Below are positions 1 through 58,524 of a stretch of DNA of 64,000 nucleotides, in pieces. Position 1 is the stretch's first letter. Every line of letters starts with the position of its first letter. The position numbers and the translations under genes were made by a program. The notes under the pieces were generated by a model. It saw nothing but the letters and a program-made list of their open reading frames with translations, did no database searches and was not told the DNA's origin. This DNA comes from Hericium rajendrae (lineage: Eukaryota > Basidiomycota > Agaricomycetes > Russulales > Hericiaceae), in the NCBI GenBank assembly GCA_033439255.1, contig CM065886.1, forward strand, positions 1,488,001 through 1,552,000, written 5' to 3'.

Positions 1-45
1 AAGGTGAGTAAAACAGTTCTATTAACCTCATTTTGCACTAATATA

Positions 46-81
46 GAGAGTATTGCTCGTTTGAATACGGGCAATACTCTC
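46..81. repeat. Stem-loop in module head
   Basis: GAGAGTATTGC and its reverse complement GCAATACTCTC face each other across a short spacer. The third module copy has the same structure at 9938-9971 with a perfect 14-bp stem (GAGAGTATCGCTCG). The pairing is kept although the bases differ (ATTGC against ATCGC), which suggests selection on the fold. Confidence 0.8.
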
Positions 82-1222
82 GTTTTTACCCTACACAATG
101 CCCCCATTGACACCCGCAACCTCCGCATGCCCCTGCCGACTCTCGCACGCCTCTGTCGTCCTCCCCGCATCCCCTGCTGCCTCCCGCGCGCCCCTGCCAT
201 CTCCCGCGTGCCCGCATCACCTCGCGCCCGCTGCCGTCTCCCACACGCCTGTGTCGCCTCACGCGCCCCTGCATTGCCTTCCCCGCCTGTCCGTGCCGTC
301 TCCCTCGCGCCCGCGCCGTCTCGCCCATGCTGATGGCGTCTTCCCCGTGCACCTGCCATCTCCCACAAGCCCACACCGTCTCCCGCACATCCACGCAGAC
401 TCGTGCACCCCCGCACCAGCACCAGCACTCCCGCACTGACTTGCACGCGCCTGCGCGAACTCACACGTGTCCGCGCCACCTCCTGCGTGCCCGCGCCGCC
501 TCCTGTGCGCCCACACCGTCTCCCGCGCACTCCCTACACATCGCCTCCCCCCACTCACATATCTCCCCCACATCCACGCCATCTCGCGCACATTGGCGCT
601 GTCTCCCTCCATGCCGCTAACCCCTCCCCAGCTCTTCCTGCTGCCTCCCCCGTGCCCCCACCATCTCCCGTGCCCCCACTCGCCTCGCGCGCATTGGCGC
701 CGTCTTCCTTGTACATGCCGGCGTCCTTTCCTGTGCACCCGCGCTGCCTTGCGCACGCAGGCGCCGCCTCCCCTGCGTCCATGCCACCTTGCTCGCATCT
801 GCGCCACCTCGCGCACACCCATGCTGCCTCCCCCATGCCGGCGCCATCTCGCGCGTGTCCGCGCTGCCTCCCCCACATACACGCACCCCTCTTGCACGCG
901 CATGCCCCTCCGCGCGCCTTTGCCGTCTCCCCATGCCCGCATTGCCTCGTGCGCATCCACACCGTCTCCGCCGCGCCCCTGCCACCGTGCCCCTGCCATC
1001 TCTCCCGCCTCTGCACCACCGCGCGTGCATCCACGCTGTCTCCCCTGCACTGCTGCCGCCTCTCCCCCGCACCGCCGCCTCCCGCACGTTCGTGCTGCCG
1101 CCTTCCGCGCGTCCGCGCCGCTTTGCACATGCTGATGCCACCTTGTTCGCACCCGCATCCAGTCTCTCCTGCCTGTGCCAAGTCACGCATGCTCCCACCA
1201 ACTCCCCTACAGATGCAAAATG

Positions 1223-1256
1223 TGGGAACTGTTTTGCTGCAGCAAAACAGTTCCCA
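1223..1256. repeat. Perfect 34-bp palindrome
   Basis: The half-site TGGGAACTGTTTTGCTG is followed directly by its reverse complement with no spacer. Identical palindromes lie at 8241-8274 and 11341-11374, and a diverged one at 9604-9639. It marks the boundary between the GC-rich body and the AT-rich tail of each module. Confidence 0.95.
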
Positions 1257-2128
1257 TGCTCAGATAGTTTGAAGGAGACGTATTAGAATCTTGTACATTA
1301 GATTACATTTGTAACTACTGTAGGCCCAATGAGAATCATTGTGAACATCTATAGTGAAATCAAAGGATAATTTGGGCATTTAAGCATGCTTTTGAGAGTG
1401 CAGAATTGCTCAGAGTGAACATTTTATTTTTGTGATCTACCAGTGCTACAAGAAGTACGGTAGCTGTAGTTCTGGCTTTGTAAGATTGCCGGGTCTCCGG
1501 ATATCAAACCAGTGGCTTACGATTACCAAAGCTCGGTTACTATAGCCAAGGCTCGGCTACCGTAGCCATACCTCGGCTTTTACCCAAAAAACCATTTTTC
1601 CTGATGCTACTATCATGAAACGAATGAGATTTAGGGCCGGTCGCGATGCACCTTGGAGAAACGTCGTAGCGTTGCTACGGGGTCTCGGAAATATCGAGAC
1701 GTGTACCTGTATTTCGCGAGGGGTACGGCAGGCAGGCGAAGTAACTGCAAATGCGTCAAAAACCTGTCATCTAGACTGAAAGCCATTAGAGATCAGATCG
1801 GAGATTTTGAAAACTCACCATCACAATGTCAAATTTTCAAGTTGTCGACAACCTTTTGTGAGGTATGTATTTATGGTGGATTTTAGGAAACGGTTCAAAA
1901 TCGCCAGATGCCGGTCATGCCGACTATGCCGGGCTGATGTTTGGTCGTCGACCGACTTGTGGGCATATCAGGGCCCCGGACACCTTCGCAATGTGAGAGA
2001 AAGTTCATTCTCCCTCCAATAACGTCTTTGAGGAAGATCAATTATTTGTATCTTCTTGTGTCTTGTGCAACATCATCATCAGATCGCAGCCGCAGAAGTG
2101 TAAACGGGGACTAAGTTTTTTTTTTGTA

Positions 2129-2800
2129 TCAATCATCATCGAATGGCATTGTGGTATATCGGGTAGCCTTTACAAAGTGGTTCTGCATGCTCATCCCCGC
2201 AATGTGGCAGACCTCGTCCTCCATCAGGCCCATGCCAAGCAGCTTCGGCACCAGCAGCAGTGCGTACTCGCTGATTAGCGAGTTGCGGAACAGCAAGATG
2301 TCATCCGTCTGCACGCCATCAGCGACCGGGCATGAAAAGGTAGACATGCAAGAGAGAATGCACGCAGACGGCGAGAGGATAGTCGTGGTGTAGGTAGCAG
2401 CGGATGTGATCGTCCAGATGCAGTTTTTGCATCTGAAAAGTGGCATCAATGCTTCGATCAGGCGCACATGTCGTGTGCGGGGCTCCACGCCGGCGTGCAG
2501 ACAGGTGAGCGGAGCATGCACAGCAGGTTCGACGAGAGGCAGATCTCAATGCAGGTCTTGTTCTTCAGCACGAGGGCCCTCATATGCTTCGTCATCCGGG
2601 TCGCCTGGGAATGGGAAGAAGTAGATGGGCTCCAATATGGCATCAACGATGTCTGCAGCAATATGCACCTTCGCTATGATATACACGATGGTCCCATCCG
2701 GCACAGGCTGGCTAGAAGCGGGAGCATACACGCGAACGGTTCCATCCATAGGACTGCTATTATTTGCCGACAGCTGCAATGTCAAGCTGTACAAATAAAA
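2129..2800 (-). pseudogene. Relic of a fungal hypothetical protein, interrupted at the retroelement edge
   Basis: Reading the minus strand just beyond the left LTR gives a coherent stretch containing SSPMDGTVRVYAPASSQPV, then DGTIVYIIAKVHIAAD and FFPFPGDPDDEAYE. These resemble, from memory, a mushroom hypothetical protein family with an OB-like fold. A further stretch at 2521-2129 is in another frame, so the gene is broken. The LTR begins at 2807, directly upstream of the readable part. Family and function are uncertain. Confidence 0.35.
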
Positions 2801-2806
2801 CAGCGT

Positions 2807-3628
2807 TGATGTGTGGACCCTGGGAATGGAGGTGGCAGCCAAAACCAAAACCAACAGAGTACCGGGGGGTGCGAGGGGACCAAGTATCTCAAGTGAGGAG
2901 TGAGGTGAGGGCAGCTGAAGGTCACTGCAGCAGGAACGATGGAACGGCTGGTTCGCTAAGGGCGATACTGAGGCAATCTGGTGATAAGCGGCTGGGAAGG
3001 ATGAGGAACGGCTGTAGAATGACAAGGGGAACGACGAGACACACGGGTCTCCGATACGACAGACTGATCCTAGAGAAAAGGACTGAAAAGCGGCTGATAT
3101 GACTGAATCTGACGAACGACGCTGCGGGCGGACTGGCCTAAAGGAGGGCGAACTTGTCTAAAGCCCGGAGAACAATGAGAACAACAGTGAGAGAGACTTC
3201 TGAGGTCTGAGCTCTGAGGGGGAAAGGTGCACTGGGGGGTTCTATTCGAAGCTGGGACTCTGTCTACCATACAAGTAAGAAACTCGCCCTGGGCGATCTC
3301 GGGCAATCTCGGACTCGGCTGCTCTATGGTACATCTATGGTCCGAAACCATCAAAAGGCGGCATCCAGGCATCCTGTACAACACAGACCCGGTACCATAA
3401 TGCCCACAACCTGATTGGCTCACCAAAACCGCTGAGGACGACCTGGAGCGAACTTGAGGAAACCTCGGTGAGGCCTGCAGTAGCTAACAACTCCTGAGAT
3501 GAGGGACATCACTGCTCTGAGCGAGGTTGGTGGGTGAGGAGCTGGAAGCTGGATGGAAGTGAAGGGGAACTGCATGGGAGATGGTGAGATGAGGTCTGAC
3601 GTTGCTGAACACAGCTTGAGGCGTATCA
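2807..3628 (-). repeat. 3' LTR of the gag-only element
   Basis: About 822 bp with TG..CA ends on the minus strand. It shares about 700 bp with 7192-7890 with only a few mismatches. No matching target-site duplication was found at the outer edges. Confidence 0.8.
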
Positions 3629-3766
3629 TTCTCCCCCCAACTGAAAAATAGACTGCCCTCAGTCTAACCAATGAGCCCCACGAGGGATTCGGACGCTAGA
3701 CACCAAATACGCTTCGAGCAGTGTTCTCACTATAGCTGAGAAGGAGAGTGGAGGTGGTGACAACGA

Positions 3767-6070
3767 TCAAGCAGGAATGCATCGCGATAGAGGAGGACGA
3801 TCTGGGATCACTGCTGGTGGGTTCTGATGGAAAGCAAGATGGTCAAGGAAAATGATATCGCTGTCGTCGACTAAGGGTGCCCTGAGCGAACTTGATGCGG
3901 ATCTGAAAAGTGACTGGAGAAATGACACTGAAAGCGGTGGAGTGATGGAAAACGGAGGTCGACAGTCAGCAGGTATAGGCTTGGATGCCATAGGCAAGCT
4001 TGGAGTGGGTTCAGAGCCACCAACAAGGACTCCTGGGTTGAGATCAGATTTTGAGACACCCTGGTGATCCACCTGCAGGTCTGTGCATTGAGAAAGAAAC
4101 TCTGCATCGGTAGAGACGGTAGAAGGAAGGGTAGATGAGCTGCTCGAGACTTGGTGCTTCTCTAAGTCCAATAGAAACAAGTTCGCCGGTGGTTCGCTTC
4201 GGGCGATGTTGAGCGCAGAGCGAACTTGAGTCTCTAACTGCTCGCATTGGTCTCTGGATGACAGGAGAGGCCTCCTAGATGATGACACATGATGATCGAT
4301 GAAGGATGAGCTCGACATATGGGCTGGCATCACGGCTGGCTCATGGAGCTGAGCAAGTTCGCCTCGAGCGTGGTAGGTGGTGAAGTCGAGTTGCATCTGA
4401 TAGAGCTGAGCAAGCTGATGTCTGCAAGACTGGATCGGCGTCGAAATGGAGAGGCCATGCCTTAGAAGATAGACTCGATCCTCAAAGGACACTTGATCTG
4501 CGGTCGAAGGAAGGTCGCTGTGGGCGGACTTGTGCGGAGCAGGCATTTGGTGGACAAAGGGAGCAGTTTGAGCGATGATGCTTGGTGAAGACTGGTCTGG
4601 GGCATGCCAGGATGGGGTGCGCTGATAGAACTGGTCAAGACGAACTGCAATGGGATCACCTGGGACACCTCGAGGTAGCCAGGCCCCAGAAGGTAAAGTG
4701 ATCTCGCCTCTGGCGTTGAACTTGCACTTGCCAGCCTCCAGGTACGTCTGAACTGCTACGCACTGACGAAGGAAGTGACCATGGGCCCCACAGAAGCTGC
4801 AATGCCCAGGGGCAGTCCGAATACGCCGAGGCTGTCTGAAGGTCGTCGAAGGCGTACAGGAGGTCGCTGGCTGGACAGGAGGTGAAAACATCGGTGGCTG
4901 GACCGTTCTAAGCAGGAGATTCACTAATGAGGGTACATGCTCGCTTTTGATAGTGATTGTGGTGGCAGAACCCAAGACCGCTGGTGGCGAACTCACCAAA
5001 ACGTCGGCAACTGGGTCATTACAGCTTGTATGAGGGCCAAATGTGATGCTGGTACCATGCAGAATGCGCTTAGCAGCGTGATAGATGTCGATAATGGGGT
5101 AGGGCTCGTCTGGATGGTGGTCTGGGTGCCTCTGGGTGAGATAGGCCTCAATCTGGTGGCAGAGTCGATCAGGAAGCGCTGAGAGGAAGAAATGCTGCTC
5201 CTCGAAAGCAGAGAGACGTCCCTGGTGCTTCAGGCAATGTGAAATGACCAAAAATCGACGAAGAAATGCACCAAGTTCGCCTAAGGAGGACAAGTTCGCC
5301 TGAAGCGTCCTTCGAGCGAGAGCCACCAAATCCTGCCTGGACCAAAGGCCTCCTGCTTTGGAACCTGGATACAACTTCTGGATCGCAGCCTTGAACTCAT
5401 TCCAAGTGCCTGTGCCAAAACTCGGTTCAGACTGCCAGAGATCCTGGGCATCTAACTCAGACAAAAGCCGGACTGCATGAGCCTTCTTCTCCAAATCATC
5501 CTGGACCTGAAAGCGCTGAAAACAAAACTCCAGATCGGCAAAATATGGTCCAAGCTCACGGGGATCGTCTCCGGCAAAGCTGGGAGCACCGCTCTCTCCA
5601 CGCATTGGCATGAACGCTGATGGCGTCATTGTAACAGAAGCGGCGGGACAGGGGTAATGTCGAGGATGAAAGTGAGCAGTAGTGATCGGAGGCACGCTAG
5701 AGCAATCAGGAATGATGGAGGTGACTCTGATGCAAAGAAAGTGAGCCTGAGATGGACTAGGGGCGATCAGGGAAGATGAGGAGCGACTTTGAGGCGATCT
5801 TGCTATGACTAGGGCAATGCGAGACGATTGGAAGGGATGAGTGAAGAACCAAGGTGGTGGACGATGACCTGCAATGATAACTGATGATCTGGAATGCTTG
5901 AAAGCGATGAAAGGTGCTTGAAAGCGATGACAAATGCTCAAAAGCAATAGAAGGCAATTCTGGGGCAACCAGAATGGCGAGCAATAGGGAGAGATGATCC
6001 AAAGGGGCCAGGGGTGCTCCTGGGGTGATACAACCTGGAAAAGCAATGAGAAACTGCTAAAAGCAACCAA
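3767..6070 (-). CDS. Gag-like protein of the LTR element
   Basis: This is a long open frame of up to 767 codons. The first part is low complexity; the likely gag proper begins near 5605 with a capsid-like helical region (LGPYFADLEFCFQRF, then WNEFKAAIQKLYPG). A CCHC zinc knuckle follows (CSFCGAHGHFLRQC, spacing C-x2-C-x4-H-x4-C). The rest is serine/proline-rich. No pol domains follow before the 3' LTR. Confidence 0.75.
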   Translation of the reverse strand: MVAFSSFSLLFQVVSPQEHPWPLWIISPYCSPFWLPQNCLLLLLSICHRFQAPFIAFKHSRSSVIIAGHRPPPWFFTHPFQSSRIALVIARSPQSRSSSSLIAPSPSQAHFLCIRVTSIIPDCSSVPPITTAHFHPRHYPCPAASVTMTPSAFMPMRGESGAPSFAGDDPRELGPYFADLEFCFQRFQVQDDLEKKAHAVRLLSELDAQDLWQSEPSFGTGTWNEFKAAIQKLYPGSKAGGLWSRQDLVALARRTLQANLSSLGELGAFLRRFLVISHCLKHQGRLSAFEEQHFFLSALPDRLCHQIEAYLTQRHPDHHPDEPYPIIDIYHAAKRILHGTSITFGPHTSCNDPVADVLVSSPPAVLGSATTITIKSEHVPSLVNLLLRTVQPPMFSPPVQPATSCTPSTTFRQPRRIRTAPGHCSFCGAHGHFLRQCVAVQTYLEAGKCKFNARGEITLPSGAWLPRGVPGDPIAVRLDQFYQRTPSWHAPDQSSPSIIAQTAPFVHQMPAPHKSAHSDLPSTADQVSFEDRVYLLRHGLSISTPIQSCRHQLAQLYQMQLDFTTYHARGELAQLHEPAVMPAHMSSSSFIDHHVSSSRRPLLSSRDQCEQLETQVRSALNIARSEPPANLFLLDLEKHQVSSSSSTLPSTVSTDAEFLSQCTDLQVDHQGVSKSDLNPGVLVGGSEPTPSLPMASKPIPADCRPPFSITPPLSVSFLQSLFRSASSSLRAPLVDDSDIIFLDHLAFHQNPPAVIPDRPPLSRCIPA

Positions 6071-7191
6071 TGTCGCCGACGGTGGGTCAAGATCGCCAGT
6101 GGAAATCTAAAACAAAAGAAAGCAAGTAGGGGCCAAGAAAATGACCTGAGAGCGACTCGAGAGGCTCCTGAACGTCGATGGTGACTTTGGGATGGACTGT
6201 AAGCAGTCTGGACACAACTGGCTCAACCTGAAAGAAACAAGACTCCTCTGCAACCGATGGAGAGTGCTAGGGATGCTGGGGCGACCTTGCCTAAGACAAA
6301 ATGCGATAAGTCGATGGGAGATGGCTCCTGAACGAAAGACAGTGATAGGAGTGATCGATAGGAACCCTGGGGCAATGAAAAGTGACTCAAAGCACTGGAA
6401 GATGATAGGAGGAGGAGCTGATGCAAGCTATGAGGTACAGAGGCACCTCCAAGGTGAGTCTGAGCAACAGAAGGGAGCTGGGACGACTCAATGGTGCGAA
6501 GAGGTCGCTGAAGGGGATATAAGGGCAATCCTGGACGACCTAAGATGCTGAAAGCTGGCGGCGACCTAGTATGCTACCGGCGACTCTGTGGCGACAGTGC
6601 TAGGTGATGATCCTGGGTGCTAAAAAGGCAAACAAGAGCGATTGAAGACCAACCAATGCCGTCAAAATGCAATCTGGAGCGACCAAATGAAGCGAGAAGT
6701 GATGCTAGGCAGTAGGAGATGCTGGGGACTGAGTCTGCCTAAGGCAACCTTGAGGCGAGCTGAGACGATCTGAGGTGATCAAAGGATGATCAAAGATGAT
6801 GGGAGTGACCTAAAGACGACAAAGAAAGGCAGGAGGTGACGAGAGGTGATAGGAGATGACCCAGAATGATCTGAGCCAGTACAGGGCACTAGAGAGAGAT
6901 GGGGGATGGTCCTGGGCAACAAAAAGCGACTCTGGGAGGGGCAGGATGGTGGAAAGCGACAGGAGGCAATCAGGTGCGATGAATGGTGACGAGAACCGAT
7001 TGGAAAGCTCTGCAACCAATGGCGATCTCGAAGAATGCACCAAGGCTGCCTAAGGCGATAGCGAGCGAGAATGTGATAGAGAGCAAAAATGCGATGTCCT
7101 GACCTCGATGGCAGTCTTGACCCGATAGAGGCTACGCCTGGGTACACCCCTCACTGTTTTGAGTATGGAACCCTCGCGGTGGGCTCCAAAA

Positions 7192-7890
7192 TGATGTGTG
7201 GACCCTGGGAATGGAGGCGGCAGCCAAAACCAAAACCAACAGAGTACCGGGGGGTGCGAGGGGACCAAGTATCTCAAGTGAGGAGTGAGATGAGGGCAGC
7301 TGAAGGTCACTGCAGCAGGAACGATGGAACGGCTGGTTCGCTAAGGGCGATACTGAGGCGATCTGGTGATAAGCGGCTGGGAAGGATGAGGAACGGCTGT
7401 AGAATGACAAGAGGAATGACGAGACACACGGGTCTCCGATACGACAGACTGATCCTAGAGAAAAAGACTGAAAAGCGGCTGATATGACTGAATCTGACGA
7501 ACGACGCTGCGGGCGGACTGGCCTAAAGGAGGGCGAACTTGTCTAAAGCCCGGAGAACAATGAGAACAACAGTGAGAGAGACTTCTGAGGTCTGAGCTCT
7601 GAGGGGGAAAGGTGCACTGGGGGGTTCTATTCGAAGCTGGGACTCTGTCTACCATACAAGTAAGAAACTCGCCCTGGGCGATCTCGGGCAATCTCGGACT
7701 CGGCTGCTCTATGGTACATCTATGGTCCGAAACCATCAAAAGGCGGCATCCAGGCATCCTGTACAACACAGACCCGGTACCATAATGCCCACAACCTGAT
7801 TGGCTCACCAAAACCGCTGAGGACGACCTGGAGCGAACTTGAGGAAACCTCGGTGAGGCCTGCAGTAGCTAACAACTCCTGAGATGAGGG
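7192..7890 (-). repeat. 5' LTR copy of the gag-only element, partial
   Basis: It is nearly identical to the corresponding part of the other LTR, and ends exactly where the right inverted arm begins (shared GCATCA). Confidence 0.8.
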
Positions 7891-9493
7891 CATCAGGAAA
7901 AATGGTTTTTTGGGTAATAGCCGAGGTATGGCTACGGTAGCCGAGCCTTGGCTATAGTAACCGAGCTTTGGTAATCGTAAGCCACTGGTTTGATATCCGG
8001 AGACCCGGCAATCTTACAAAGCCAGAACTACAGCTACCGTACTTCTTGTAGCACTGGTAGATCACAAAAATAAAATGTTCACTCTGAGCAATTCTGCACT
8101 CTCAAAAGCATGCTTAAATGCCCAAATTATCCTTTGATTTCACTATAGATGTTCACAATGATTCTCATTGGGCCTACAGTAGTTACAAATGTAATCTAAT
8201 GTACAAGATTCTAATACGTCTCCTTCAAACTATCTGAGCATGGGAACTGTTTTGCTGCAGCAAAACAGTTCCCACATTTTGCATCTGTAGGGGAGTTGGT
8301 GGGAGCATGCGTGACTTGGCACAGGCAGGAGAGACTGGATGCGGGTGCGAACAAGGTGGCATCAGCATGTGCAAAGCGGCGCGGACGCGCGGAAGGCGGC
8401 AGCACGAACGTGCGGGAGGCGGCGGTGCGGGGGAGAGGCGGCAGCAGTGCAGGGGAGACAGCGTGGATGCACGCGCGGTGGTGCAGAGGCGGGAGAGATG
8501 GCAGGGGCACGGTGGCAGGGGCGCGGCGGAGACGGTGTGGATGCGCACGAGGCAATGCGGGCATGGGGAGACGGCAAAGGCGCGCGGAGGGGCATGCGCG
8601 TGCAAGAGGGGTGCGTGTATGTGGGGGAGGCAGCGCGGACACGCGCGAGATGGCGCCGGCATGGGGGAGGCAGCATGGGTGTGCGCGAGGTGGCGCAGAT
8701 GCGAGCAAGGTGGCATGGACGCAGGGGAGGCGGCGCCTGCGTGCGCAAGGCAGCGCGGGTGCACAGGAAAGGACGCCGGCATGTACAAGGAAGACGGCGC
8801 CAATGCGCGCGAGGCGAGTGGGGGCACGGGAGATGGTGGGGGCACGGGGGAGGCAGCAGGGAGAGCTGGGGAGGGGTTAGCGGCATGGAGGGAGACAGCG
8901 CCAATGTGCGCGAGATGGCGTGGATGTGGGGGAGATGTGTGAGTGGGGGGGAGGCGATGTAGGTGCGCGGGAGACGGTGTGGGCGCACAGGAGGCGGCGC
9001 GGGCACGCAGGAGGTGGCACGGACACGTGTGAGTTCGCGCAGGCGCGTGCAAGTCAGTGCGGGAGTGCTGGTGCTGGTGCGGGGGTGCACGAGTCTGCGT
9101 GGATGTGCGGGAGACGGTGTGGGCTTGTGGGAGATGGCAGGTGCACGGGGAAGACGCCATCAGCATGGGCGAGACGGCGCGGGCACGAGGGAGACGGCAC
9201 GGACAGGCGGGGAAGGCAATGCAGGGGCGCGTGAGGCGACACAGGCGTGTGGGAGACGGCAGCGGGCGCGAGGTGATGCGGGCACGCGGGAGATGGCAGG
9301 GGCGCGCGGGAGGCAGCAGGGGATGCGGGGAGGACGACAGAGGCGTGCGAGAGTCGGCAGGGGCATGCGGAGGTTGCGGGTGTCAATGGGGGCATTGTGT
9401 AGGGTAAAAACGAGAGTATTGCCCGTATTCAAACGAGCAATACTCTCTATATTAGTGCAAAATGAGGTTAATAGAACTGTTTTACTCACCTTG
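7890..9493 (-). repeat. Right arm of the large inverted repeat
   Basis: This is the reverse complement of 1-1607, with the same order of head, stem-loop, minisatellite, palindrome (8241-8274) and AT-rich tail. Its tail end meets the partial LTR at 7890; its head ends at 9493 in ACTCACCTT. The spacer between the two arms is about 6.3 kb. Confidence 0.85.
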
Positions 9494-9893
9494 TAGCCCT
9501 CTACGGCTCTTCCCTGTAGTGAATTTGCCTAGATACCTGAAAAAGATGTGTGAACCATTCATTCAAGGAGAGAAACGTACCTTGCAGGTTTGAAAAAACA
9601 GCCGTGGGACGTGTTTGGCTGTAGCCAAACGTTTCCCACGCGCCCCCGCATTTTTTTTTTTTTTCTTCAAGTCGAAACGCGCGCAGGCACGGCCCGCCGC
9701 ACACCGTGCTGTTTTATCGTCCATATATGGTCACTAAAATGAATCGGGCCGCACGGCTCCGTGCGCTCGACTTGCGCGCGATTTGACTTTGCCTGCCACG
9801 TCGTCTTCCTTCCACCCACCCCTTCCTCATGCTGGAATTTTAATTGTAAGTGTCTCTTCATCTTTTTCGATTCTTGTTGGGCTGGGAATAAAG
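9494..9893. other. Spacer between two divergently oriented modules
   Basis: No gene is seen. It holds a diverged palindrome at 9604-9639 (GTGGGACGTGTTTGGCTG and its imperfect mirror) followed by a T-tract at 9652-9664. It may be the remains of another module copy. Confidence 0.5.
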
Positions 9894-11795
9894 GTGAGTA
9901 GCTACACTTTCTGCTGTAGCTTTATTGTACTAATCAAGAGAGTATCGCTCGTGGTGTCGAGCGATACTCTCGTTTTGTACACTCTGCATGGCCCCACCAA
10001 CGCCTGCACGCCCGCGCTGCCTCCTGTGCATCCCCACCACCTTCCCCGTATGCCTTCGCTGACTCCCGCACGGCCCACGTTGCCTCCCGCACGCCACGTC
10101 ACTTCCCGCACGCCACGCCGACTCCCGTGCACCTCCTACCGAGTCGCTCGCACCACCACCGACTCACTTGCGCCCCATCGACTCCCCGCGCCCGTGCTGC
10201 CTCTCGCCCGCCCACGCCAAGTCACGTGTACCCCGCCGACTTGCTCGCACCCCGCCAACTCGCGCGCACCCCGCCGACCTGCACGCACCCCGCCGACCCG
10301 CGCGCACCCCGCCGACCCGCGCGCACCCCGCCGACTCGCTCGCACCACGCCGACTCGCGCGCACACCCACCGATCTCCACATGCCCCGTCAACCTGCACG
10401 CGTCACTGCCGGCCCACACAAGCCCCCGCCGACCCACGCGACTTCTGCACGCTCGCAGAGGTGAGTGAGTCAGCAAGCACATGTGGAAGGCAGCGCGGGG
10501 GTGCGGGAGGCAGCAGGGGTGCGAGCGAGTCGGTGTGGGGGGGTGCGGGAGTTGGGAGAGGGTGCGCGGGAGTTAGTGGGAGTTGGGGTGGGCATGCGAG
10601 AGGAGACATGGGCACACGGGAGCTGGCGAGGGCGCGAGGGGGGTCGGGGTGGGCGGAGGTGGCAGCTGACTCCCACGTGCCCCTACTGCCTCCCGCGTGC
10701 CCGCGCGCCCTCGCCAACTCCCATGCACCCACGTCGCCCCTTGCACGCCCCTGTCGCCTCCCGCATGCTCTCGCCGACTCCCACCCACCCGTGCTGCCTC
10801 CTGCGTGCTCCCATCGCCTCCCGCGCACTCCCACCACCTCTCCTCGTCCATGCCGACTTCTGCACACCAGCGCCGCCTCCCGCGCGCGTCTGCCGCCTCC
10901 CGCACTCCCGCCGATGCCCGCGCCCTCGCGCCGATGCCTGCGCCCTCGCACCGATGCCTGCGCCCTCGCGCCGATGCCCGCGCGCCTGCGCTGACTCCCC
11001 CGCATCCGCGCTGCCTCCCGCGCGCTCCCACCGCCTCCCACCCACCTGTGCCGACTCCCGCATGCTGCCTCCTATGCGCATGCACCAACTCGAACGCACA
11101 TGCGCCGATGCCCCACGTCCCCGCCGACTCGCATGCGCCCGCACCAATGCCTGCATGCCCATGCCGACTCTAGCATGCCCATGCCCGTGCCCACGCACCC
11201 CCGCCGACTCGCGCGTGCCCTCGCCGACTCCAGCATGCCCCTGCCACCTCCAGCATGTCCCCGCTGATATCCGCATGCCCTCGCCGACCTCCGCATGCCT
11301 CCGCCGACTCCTACACGCCCATGCTGCCTCCTGTAGTGCGTGGGAACTGTTTTGCTGCAGCAAAACAGTTCCCATGAGGCATTGGATGCTGTGGATATAG
11401 AGGGGGAGATATCATGCACTAGTACTATTAGTATACAAGATGTAACTAGCCAGAATACAAAATTTTGCATGATATATTGTTTGAGATGTGATCAGAGACT
11501 ATAATGAATTATAAGAAACTATATTATACTGAATCTCACATACTGCAGTATAGCACCACAGTAGCCGGCATAAGCTACAGTGGCTAACATAAGCTACAGT
11601 AGCTAACATAAGCTATAGTAGATATACCATCTACAGACTGCTACGGATCACTACAGATGGCTACAGACAGCTACCTGTAGTTGTAATAGAGACCCACCTA
11701 TCAACAGATGCTACAGAAAATATATAATCTATTATAGCTACTGTAGACCATATTTTCTACTGTAGGCTAAAGTAGTGTGGACACTTTTTCCAGAT
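9894..11795 (+). repeat. Third, diverged copy of the modular element
   Basis: It starts with AAGGTGAGTA and has a perfect stem-loop at 9938-9971. The GC-rich body includes a 17-bp tandem repeat (unit about CGCGCACCCCGCCGACC, 10225-10380) and an 18-bp one (unit about CGCCGATGCCTGCGCCCT, 10905-10985). The strand bias of the body flips between about 10460 and 10675, as if that segment were inverted. The palindrome at 11341-11374 matches the arms exactly. The tail has three to four copies of a 19-bp unit like ACAGTAGCTAACATAAGCT (11562-11625) and ends in CTTTTTCCAGATG, like the arms' TTTTTCCTGATG. Confidence 0.65.
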
Positions 11796-12954
11796 GGCCC
11801 TATATAGCCTTCGCAGTTGTACGCAGTCTTCGTCCAATCCCTCCTCGAGCTCCCTCCTCTCGCAAGCATATCAGCTATTCAAGCTTTTCGAAGGACCGTC
11901 GTGCCTGTTTATTCCCTCCGGATTCTCTAGGCTGGCGTCTTCTTGTGTCGGCCTTCTATTGGCTGGACTCTCAATCGTTCGTGGTGCTTTCCATCAAGTG
12001 TTGCTTTCTGGGACTCCTCGAAGACATTCTCTGGCGGGATATCTCGCGACGGGCGCAACGCTCGCCCCTGGCTTCTGGATCGCTCGGGATCTATCCCATT
12101 TTCAGCTGACTGATTGCACGACGGTGCATCAGTGTGCATAGAGATGGTTGTTACGTAGTTACAGATGTGTCTCGTAGATAGCTTCTATGTATCTTAGACA
12201 GGTTCGTAACTACGAAAAATGCATTCAATTTTATCTCTGTCACTATCTCTGCCAAGGATGAAAATAAATAAATAAAAATATCTAAATGCTGTAGCACTCC
12301 TTGTGTCACTTTACAATGACCATATGGCATTGCACGTGTACCATGCCAATGGAGAAGTCCAACCCGCCAGGTAACCCTTGGCAGGGCTGGCAAGCCTTGC
12401 GAAGGATGGGGACGATGGCAAATCCTTAAGGTACCCGTGTATAGCCTTGCGACGAAATGTGGCATCCTTACCGGATGGCAGCGATTGTAACCTTTGTAAA
12501 TCCTTACATATCCTTGTAAGCCCTTACAGATTTTTCACGCTTTTGCTGATGGGTGACAACTGTCGTTCCAACCTCTAACGCTGGCGGCGCCGAGCGCTCG
12601 GAAACCTCGATATGCACATCAAGCATATCCGTGACCAGCATGTGGCTGGTCCGTGCAACGTCAGGCAGGCTGTAGGGAGTCCAGACGACGGCTTGCAAGG
12701 CAACGCTTCATCGCGCTATCGACGTTACTCGGCTCCGGGATCTATGCGCATCGAAAACGAAACCATCCAGATATTACACAAAGATTAAATGCCATATGCA
12801 TATACATCGTAAAAGTACACTGCTATGTGTAGTTGACCAAATAAATATCGCAGGTATGAGCACTCGACGAACCAGAGCAAAGACACAGAGGAAAGCACGA
12901 CACGACCACGGAGTCCGTATCTGCTCCGACCACAGAACCCACCACGACACCCGC
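11796..12954. other. Intergenic, no supported gene
   Basis: Short frames here have no recognisable domain. At 12360-12535 there is a cluster of CCTTGC/CCTTAC-type short repeats. The segment ends at the stop codon of the APH-fold gene on the minus strand. Confidence 0.5.
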
Positions 12955-33834: not shown

Positions 33835-35116
33835 ATGGATGAAGGCGACCAAGAACGATCTTCGGAGGAGGCTGCCAGTGGTCCAGTAGATGCTGGAAGG
33901 GCACCATCTTCTAGATATGCCGAGTCTTCTGAAGACCAAAGCGCTCTCTTCGACAAGGCTGCCAGCATGCTCAATCGTGCCCGGCTAGAAAGCGTCAAGC
34001 TCGATCAGGTTTGCCACTCTGAAATCTCTCCTTCTCAGATCTCTCATATGCAATTCTAGGCGGCTGTGGTCCCCATTGACGTGACTAGCTTGCGTCTCGA
34101 ATTGGAGGAACATGAACATCATGATGACGACTCGGAGTTCGCCTTTTACCAGGTCTGTTCCTACTTCGATGCCAGTTCTGGTTCCATACCAATCACATTT
34201 TTATGTTAGGACTATCGGTTCTCAGCATCGGTAGCAGGGCTTTCAGGACGCCCTCTTACGCTCGTGTCTGTCCATGTACGGACGATAGACCGAGAAAAGA
34301 TCAGACCCAAGCATGCTTTCTACTACGAGATGGACGGCGTTTCTCATGTTCGTCAATGGCCTCACCGAACGCAAATCTTCATGCTGATGTATGCAATCTT
34401 CAGGGTTTGATTCACTTCTCCACAGCCGTCTTCGACAGATGCGGACAGATCAAAGACGACGTGGTATACTCTGGGTCTCGGGTGTGGGGTGAAGAGATCA
34501 ACGAATGGCGCGAGCTGGCGTATATCGAGGAAATCATTGTCAATAAGGCTTATCGCAGGCAAGGAATAGGCAGCTGGGCTCTCCGCGCTGTTTTGGAACA
34601 AAAGGAGCTAGCAGTAAGTCTAGCACACTTGCCCTGATAAGCCACCATCTGACCATGGCAAAGAGCTGTCCATGGATTTTCGCGTGGCCTTCAGTACTCA
34701 ATGACGACCTTTTTGGACCGCCGGACACGGCAGAGGTCTGGAACGCGAAGAAGGCGGGTGTCATCTCGCTCTACCGCAAGCTGGGCTTTCGTCGCGTCGG
34801 AGACACTTTCATTTTTGGATATGCTCGAGATGCGACGCACGCTTCGCGACACTTGCCTGAGGAGGAAGACGGGGAGGAAAAACCACGATCAGGCACGTCC
34901 AGTGAGCAGGTGTTCGATGAGCAAGTGCTCGACGAACGGGTGTTCGACGAACGGGCTCAGCAGGCGCTCGACCAGCAGGCTTTCGACGACCATTTATTCG
35001 ACCTACGGGCTCAGCAGGAGTTCGACCAACAGGCTTTAGACGACCAAATATTCGACGTACAGGCTCAGCAGGCGTTCGACCAGCAGACATTCGACGAGCA
35101 GTTCGACGGATTGTAG
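33835..35116 (+). CDS. GNAT-family N-acetyltransferase, paralog C, with pentapeptide-repeat tail
   Basis: Predicted exons are 33835-34008, 34060-34152, 34210-34347, 34404-34613 and 34664-35116, giving 355 aa. Motif A is VNKAYRRQGIGSWALRAVL; the fold ends with YRKLGFRRVGDTFIFGYARD at about residue 280. After that comes a tail absent from paralogs A and B: about a dozen 5-residue units of type x-F/L-D-E/D/Q-Q/R (AFDDH, ALDDQ, TFDEQ), from a 15-bp DNA repeat. The frame stops at 35116, but the same repeat runs on in frame to a second TAG at 35179-35181, so the stop is probably recent. Confidence 0.87.
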
Positions 35117-35181
35117 GAATTCGACGAGCAGGCTTTCGACGAGCAGTTCGATGAATGGCAGGGGTTCGATGGGGACGGCTA
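34899..35181 (+). repeat. 15-bp coding minisatellite
   Basis: The unit is about GAGCAGGCTTTCGAC. It encodes the repeated tail of GNAT paralog C and continues past that gene's stop codon in the same frame. Confidence 0.8.
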
Positions 35182-58427: not shown

Positions 58428-58524
58428 TGGACACGTCCGGAATTGAACCGGACACCTCTCGCAAAATTATTGAGTGGTTTGAACCATGCAAAGCGAGCGT
58501 GATAACCAACTACACCACGTGCCC
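58428..58524 (-). tRNA. tRNA-Ala (TGC) with intron
   Basis: The acceptor stem GGGCACG pairs with CGTGTCC (one G-T wobble), followed by discriminator A. The D-arm is GGTGTAGTTGGTTATCAC, the anticodon stem CTCGC/GCGAG, and the T-arm TCCGG-TTCAATT-CCGGA. The loop begins TTTGCA, so with U33 fixed the anticodon is TGC. An intron of about 20 nt follows position 37. The A-box and B-box are intact. Confidence 0.88.

Follow-up and report, generated by a model that had tools for sequence, protein, structure and literature searches.

Paired arms of PlavakaB-type non-autonomous transposons with candidate spliced hairpin leaders in Hericium rajendrae

A stretch of 64,000 nucleotides from the fungus Hericium rajendrae (contig CM065886.1, here C9:1488001-1552000, called the window below) carries three related, repeat-rich segments close to its left edge. 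These are very probably the arms of two non-autonomous PlavakaB-type elements, which would be moved in trans and have candidate bidirectional, spliced hairpin leaders inside. An unnamed repeat thereby becomes a transposon system, with non-coding elements, a transposase-coding relative that has the same ends, and defined target-site duplications. The assembly comprises 46.8 Mb in 19 contigs; contigs are given as C numbers and individual loci as L numbers.

Elements, ends and coding relatives

The layout was obtained by comparing the window's opening 16 kb with the preceding 20 kb of the contig. Within 30 kb this self-comparison gives four units of 3.9-4.1 kb, E1 to E4 (Table 1), each with a core of about 400 bp between two arms that are placed head to head. 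A first-pass annotation of the window had described three copies of one modular element, in the order head, stem-loop, GC-rich minisatellite body, 34-bp palindrome and AT-rich tail. These parts are present in that order, as three arms: the first copy is the right arm of E3, and the second and third are the two arms of E4. Comparison of E3 with E4 shows that the repeated unit is the arm pair and not the single arm. The first two copies are nearly identical, being one and the same arm in two inverted sisters, while within an element the two arms diverge over most of their extent and do not form inverted copies of one another. The bodies are built of degenerate 19-20-bp tandem repeats, C-rich on the outward strand, and the palindrome is identical in all three arms, as the annotation had it. 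With up to 3 mismatches the palindrome occurs at 76 places in the genome, compared with 0 for the reversed pattern.

The elements end in 12-bp motifs, CATCWGGAAAAA...TTTTTCCWGATG, with the consensus CATC(A/T)GGAAAAA...TTTTTCC(A/T)GATG; several copies have CATCA at one end and CATCT at the other. This end motif is found at 66 places and its reversed form at 6. The final 112 bases of E1 are matched at 40 scored places among 43 candidates (identity 94-100%). The core is matched at 40 places, with 41 scored matches of which one is a small opposite-strand fragment of another, and this count is a lower bound, as 40 of 62 candidates were scored. The genome carries dozens of such elements. One further candidate, an 11.9-kb element at C1:214368-226318, was rejected: its ends had been mispaired, and the true right end lies at C1:218102.

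Flanks were compared for 31 end pairs, leaving out L012, L016 and L022, which have one end each. A matching duplication of 2 or 3 bp is present in 27 of the 31, where about 8% would be expected by chance (P about 2e-26). The pairs without matching flanks are E3, E4, and one each at L014 and L019. Two of the loci, L027 (C5:1393442) and L028 (C5:1351116), lie about 42 kb from each other and hold one insertion, with flanks that are the reverse complement of one another. Going by these flanks, it is a single insertion within an inverted genomic duplication; with the two loci counted once, 26 of 30 distinct insertions have a matching duplication.

No gene was recognised in elements of the E1-E4 type and no transposase is encoded in the window elements, which are non-autonomous because nothing recognisable is encoded in them. 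At three places in the genome the same end motifs stand 12.4 kb apart (C2:25000-37414, C2:3857472-3869885 and C4:1119862-1132277). The first of these elements, 12,415 bp long, has the same ends and the duplication CA, and one of its frames matches Plavaka (PF18759, E 2.1e-43). Two other frames match Peptidase_C48 weakly and below the cut-off (E 0.0012 and 0.0062), and another matches Tet_JBP with 31.5 bits (E 1.3e-7), short of the cut-off of 34.9. Its Plavaka gene is in three pieces, one containing a stop; in the other two 12.4-kb elements the match falls into two stop-free pieces each. A genome-wide search for Plavaka gave 132 scored matches, among them several fragments that belong to a single gene; the search of 14 control genomes gave zero.

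When E1 is aligned with the 12.4-kb element, the left ends share 175 columns at 71% identity and the right ends 220 columns at 83%, and the palindrome and core motifs are common to both interiors. CTACAG/CTGTAG motifs cluster at one end of E1, E3 and the 12.4-kb element. Of 13 occurrences in E1, 8 lie within its last 225 bases; the first 220 bases of E3 contain 9 of its 16, and the final 220 bases of the 12.4-kb element 6 of its 13. The 12.4-kb element also has a palindromic stretch (3933-4066) between divergent frames, which on inspection by eye has an outward-facing GTAAGT on either side. The first-pass annotation had suggested that genomic copies with common ends, target-site duplications and a transposase-coding relative would mark a mobile element. 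All three were found, although the duplications are missing at E3 and E4 themselves. The idea of a modular mobile element stands in this form, with the arm pair as its unit.

PlavakaB was described in 2025 in the CACTA/EnSpm-Mirage-Chapaev-Transib (CACTA/CMC) group, and the passages of that paper at hand give CATCA..TGATG as its ends, with duplications of 2 or 3 bp, and assign all TET-bearing Plavaka families to it (PMC12730594). Measured against these passages, our elements agree at the level of CATC...GATG, partly at the fifth base, and in their 2-3-bp duplications. The Plavaka transposase and the sub-cut-off TET/JBP-like match come through the 12.4-kb relatives and not through the window elements. 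The window elements differ in being gene-less, in their GC-rich repeat bodies, in the splice-like hairpin leader of each arm and in having CATCA or CATCT ends. The annotation could name no family for these repeats. On the ends, the duplications and the Plavaka matches, their identity as PlavakaB-type non-autonomous transposons, in place of an unnamed class, is well supported.

The most economical mechanism would be movement by Plavaka transposase in trans. A transposase from the 12.4-kb relatives would recognise the CATCWGGAAAAA ends together with the subterminal CTACAG-type repeats, and would move the 4-kb element, leaving 2- or 3-bp duplications. A comparable case is the non-autonomous hAT of Marasmius oreades, in which non-coding copies have the same terminal repeats as a coding family; it belongs to another superfamily, measures 0.6 kb, and is described without mention of such a leader in the passages available (PMC9674265). 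In the titles, abstracts and passages searched, which did not include subscription papers, Repbase or supplements, no description of these elements or of the hairpin was found.

Defective copies of En/Spm-type CACTA elements have short terminal repeats and clustered subterminal motifs and have lost their coding part, and the window elements are like them in all three respects. En/Spm-type elements have CACTA ends and 3-bp duplications, and are not known to have a hairpin joined to a splice site. The splice-like leader with a hairpin in each arm may be a new feature.

An intron-like leader with a hairpin

The motif AAGGTGAGTA, which the first-pass annotation took for the head of the element, is best read as an internal 5' splice site that stands about 43-45 nt before an acceptor at the hairpin, rather than as an element terminus. 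Alone it occurs at 331 genome places and reversed at 146, as would be expected if the motif is mostly an ordinary splice donor. The stretch that follows has the layout of a miniature intron: a donor, a TACTAAT-like branch motif, and then an AG whose G opens the stem. Outward GT(A/G)AGT donors lie within 450 nt of the core on the left in 23 of 26 core hits and on the right in 21. Farther outward comes a hairpin beginning GAGAGTAT, present in 69 of 92 arms (46 core hits, a few cores being entered twice via overlapping loci or split hits). GTGAGT stands 39-44 nt upstream of the hairpin in 52 of these 69, and among the remaining 17 some show GTAAGT or a donor that has decayed. At window 9846, and at the equivalent place in most left arms, there is a second donor, GTAAGT, 48-49 nt upstream of GTGAGT; the stretch after it ends in AAAG at the next donor, which resembles either an alternative donor or an exon of zero length.

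The hairpins reported by the first-pass annotation are present in all three arms, and the hairpin pattern recurs at 189 forward and 195 reverse places in the genome, both within and outside the 4-kb family, with 0 in the control. Of 20 places initially chosen on C1 and C2 away from core hits, 13 were fetched, and on reading all 13 have the arrangement, with the donors GTRAGT (11), GCAAGT (1) and GTAAGC (1). A pattern search for intron and hairpin together lists 12 of them and misses the last. We also ran a sequence-blind script, which looks for a donor, a branch motif, AG and any stem of at least 12 pairs, over 357 kb. It found 75 places with 54 unique hairpins, where the reversed sequence and three mononucleotide shuffles gave 0 each; the 357 kb were chosen for these elements and partly overlap, so that 75 is no genome density. 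The intron-like stretch measures 43-45 nt in 65 of the 75 (range 39-49), and one hit, L030:2520, looks like chance.

The same plan occurs with other ends. L002 holds a complete element of 2663 bp (342-3004) with the ends CATCAGAGAAAA...TTTTCTCTGATG and the duplication TT. It has AT-rich tails, a core-like middle, a GTGAGT donor, TACTAAC, a hairpin and a C-rich body, and both sides of its stem (GGGGAGTCTCGCTTG/CGAGTGAGACTCCCC) are unlike the main class. Judged by its sequence, this is a second family of the same plan. Motifs resembling the left or right end of the L002 element are also seen in L022 (twice), L026, L030 and L086, in a search run without a control, and both ends together in L002 alone. 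Across units from L073 to L086, a nearly palindromic motif around GTTCGGTGGCTGAAGCACCGAAC recurs upstream of the hairpin, on the promoter side. At L086 the hairpin module was considered as the own leader of a neighbouring gene, and this was rejected: the gene has three identical copies and one distant match, the module 47 scored matches.

Do the stems keep pairing when their letters change? The main GAGAGTAT class comprises 63 unique hairpins, in which 791 of the 807 stem cells are paired; 500 shuffles average 774.7 and reach at most 782. Two Watson-Crick types occur at 3 of its 13 stem positions, so that the main-class stem is mostly just conserved sequence. With five diverged stems added (L002, L030, two in L014, and L026) 853 of 871 cells pair, and the maximum of 500 shuffles is 799; these stems may be offset in register, so cross-class position counts need caution. 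From different letters the diverged stems form 10 to 13 or more base pairs, four of the five pairing throughout and L030 having two mismatches. The conserved folding signal that the annotation had proposed is borne out by them. Mismatches on the outward strand are G-U in 45 cases and A-C in 15. This excess leans weakly towards RNA, since the counts come from related sequences and are not independent, and G-U and A-C are about equally common at stem positions 9 and 10.

We infer that the core may act as a bidirectional promoter. With its outward splice donors it would fire both ways, and each direction would give a first exon, a putative intron of about 43-45 nt, a hairpin that starts at the 3' splice site and may act as RNA, and a C-rich body in which no gene is recognised.

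Alternative readings

Some observations weigh against the view that the window holds PlavakaB-type elements with hairpin leaders. The 4-kb elements have no transposase. Published PlavakaB ends, in the passages at hand, are both CATCA, whereas here they are CATCA or CATCT (PMC12730594). Neither E3 nor E4 has a matching flank duplication; we assume a later rearrangement, which the contact of E4 with a long terminal repeat (LTR) makes plausible and does not prove. The 12,415-bp element has no match to the hairpin motif.

The hairpin is missing from 23 of the 92 arms, and this counts towards a second view of the leader, namely that it and its hairpins are inherited remains of an ancestral transposon leader, functionless in the non-coding copies. 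The copies are related and the main-class stems are mostly conserved in sequence, and we regard this view as quite plausible, though short of probable. It accounts less well for the five diverged stems that pair with other letters, for a pairing count beyond every shuffle and for the arrangement retained in the L002 element with its different ends. The rebuilt stems and this element favour, without proving, that the elements still need the leader rather than keep a leftover. The leader could then be a selected portable RNA device: a very short intron with its 3' splice site at the base of the hairpin, transcribed both ways from a bidirectional promoter, common to families with different ends, with its stem rebuilt by compensatory change and its RNA controlling splicing, export or mobilisation. 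We put this forward tentatively, as a possibility more doubtful than not. If it is true, these elements are empty of protein and not of information. Non-coding transposons are usually viewed as ends plus filler, whereas here a structured internal leader seems to be kept across families. Which RNA, then, does a gene-less transposon need?

Alternatively, the hairpin might function at the level of double-stranded DNA, perhaps as a palindrome to which a protein binds. Its near-perfect symmetry, the further DNA palindromes in the same element and the balance of mismatches at positions 9 and 10 are in keeping with this. We consider it unlikely, given the fixed place at the 3' splice site and the overall, non-independent, preponderance of G-U on the outward strand.

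It is very improbable that the C-rich bodies encode a repetitive protein. They have outward stop-free frames of up to 487 codons, and in 9 of 42 intervals the open frame is longer than in all 40 dinucleotide shuffles. Judged by length and place, however, 7 of these 9 span the core and two (L014, L030) are single bodies, the other 33 intervals do not beat the shuffles, the repeat period is 19-20 bp, and the one body frame scanned has no Pfam match. Coding bodies are not supported.

A Foldback-type element, in which long inverted repeats built of subrepeats move and hairpins and palindromes act in DNA, is scarcely credible here: the head-to-head, inward-facing arms with short tandem subrepeats are reminiscent of one, but Foldback elements carry a long repeat-rich arm twice, in inverted orientation, while here the two arms of an element are dissimilar over most of their extent and the short outer ends also occur in a Plavaka-coding element.

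Other classes fit no better. Miniature inverted-repeat transposable elements are short non-coding derivatives, usually under about 0.6 kb, and E1-E4 measure 3.9-4.1 kb. Helitrons have a 5' TC, a 3' hairpin with CTRR and no duplication, against inverted CATC/GATG ends with 2-3-bp duplications here. The ends of introner-like elements are the splice sites of one intron; here the donor is internal, at the end of the arm that faces the core, and about 43-45 nt separate it from its likely acceptor at the hairpin. For the same reason the tail repeats (CTAAC..TACAG) were dropped as acceptors.

Other features of the window

Table 1. Coordinates of the elements, their parts and the adjoining LTRs. Positions without a contig name are those of the window.
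Feature	Position	Strand	Remark
E1	C9:1470233-1474308		inverted copy of E2, 99.6% identity
E2	C9:1481181-1485258		inverted copy of E1, 99.6% identity
E3	C9:1485703-1489606		inverted copy of E4, 99.2% identity over 3.9 kb
E4, complete in window	7891-11796 (C9:1495891-1499796)	+	both 12-bp ends; flanks unmatched
Right arm of E3	1-1606	+	remainder of E3 left of window
Intron-like stretch, E3 right arm	4-46	+	43 nt; GTGAGT donor, CACTAAT branch-like, acceptor AG
Hairpin, E3 right arm	46-81	+	GAGAGTATTGCTCG...CGGGCAATACTCTC
C-rich body, E3 right arm	82-1222	+	degenerate 19-20-bp repeats
34-bp palindrome, E3 right arm	1223-1256
AT-richer tail, E3 right arm	1257-1606	+	right end ...TTTTTCCTGATG; flank duplication unmatched
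LTRs of the retrotransposon	2807-3511, 7192-7895		about 705 bp each, 99% identical
Left tail of E4	7891-8240	-	left end CATCAGGAAAAA; adjoins LTR end
34-bp palindrome, E4 left arm	8241-8274
Repeat-rich body, E4 left arm	8275-9411	-	C-rich in outward reading
Hairpin, E4 left arm	9412-9447	-
Intron-like stretch, E4 left arm	9447-9489	-	43 nt
Core of E4 between both heads	9493-9890		related palindrome 9605-9638; CATATATG at 9722
Intron-like stretch, E4 right arm	9894-9938	+	45 nt; TACTAAT
Hairpin, E4 right arm	9938-9971	+
C-rich body, E4 right arm	9972-11340	+	19-20-bp repeats
34-bp palindrome, E4 right arm	11341-11374
AT-rich tail, E4 right arm	11375-11796	+	CTACAG/CTGTAG repeats; right end TTTTTCCAGATG

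An LTR retrotransposon (window 2807-7895) lies between E3 and E4, that is, between the first two of the three copies. It has a 779-codon frame on the minus strand (3767-6106) that looks gag-like by eye. E4 adjoins its second LTR, and the terminal CATCA of the LTR is also the start of E4, so that five bases are common to both at the junction. Elsewhere, L018 has frames that look hAT-like by eye (180-2550), nested within the long left arm of the element at C2:987048-994954.

A scan of the window against Rfam at gathering scores gave nothing beyond one tRNA, at 58428-58524 on the minus strand (50.9 bits), which ARAGORN does not report. Tandem repeats of 15 bp and 45-54 bp, all multiples of three, occupy window 34903-35169 and are perhaps the repetitive part of a coding region.

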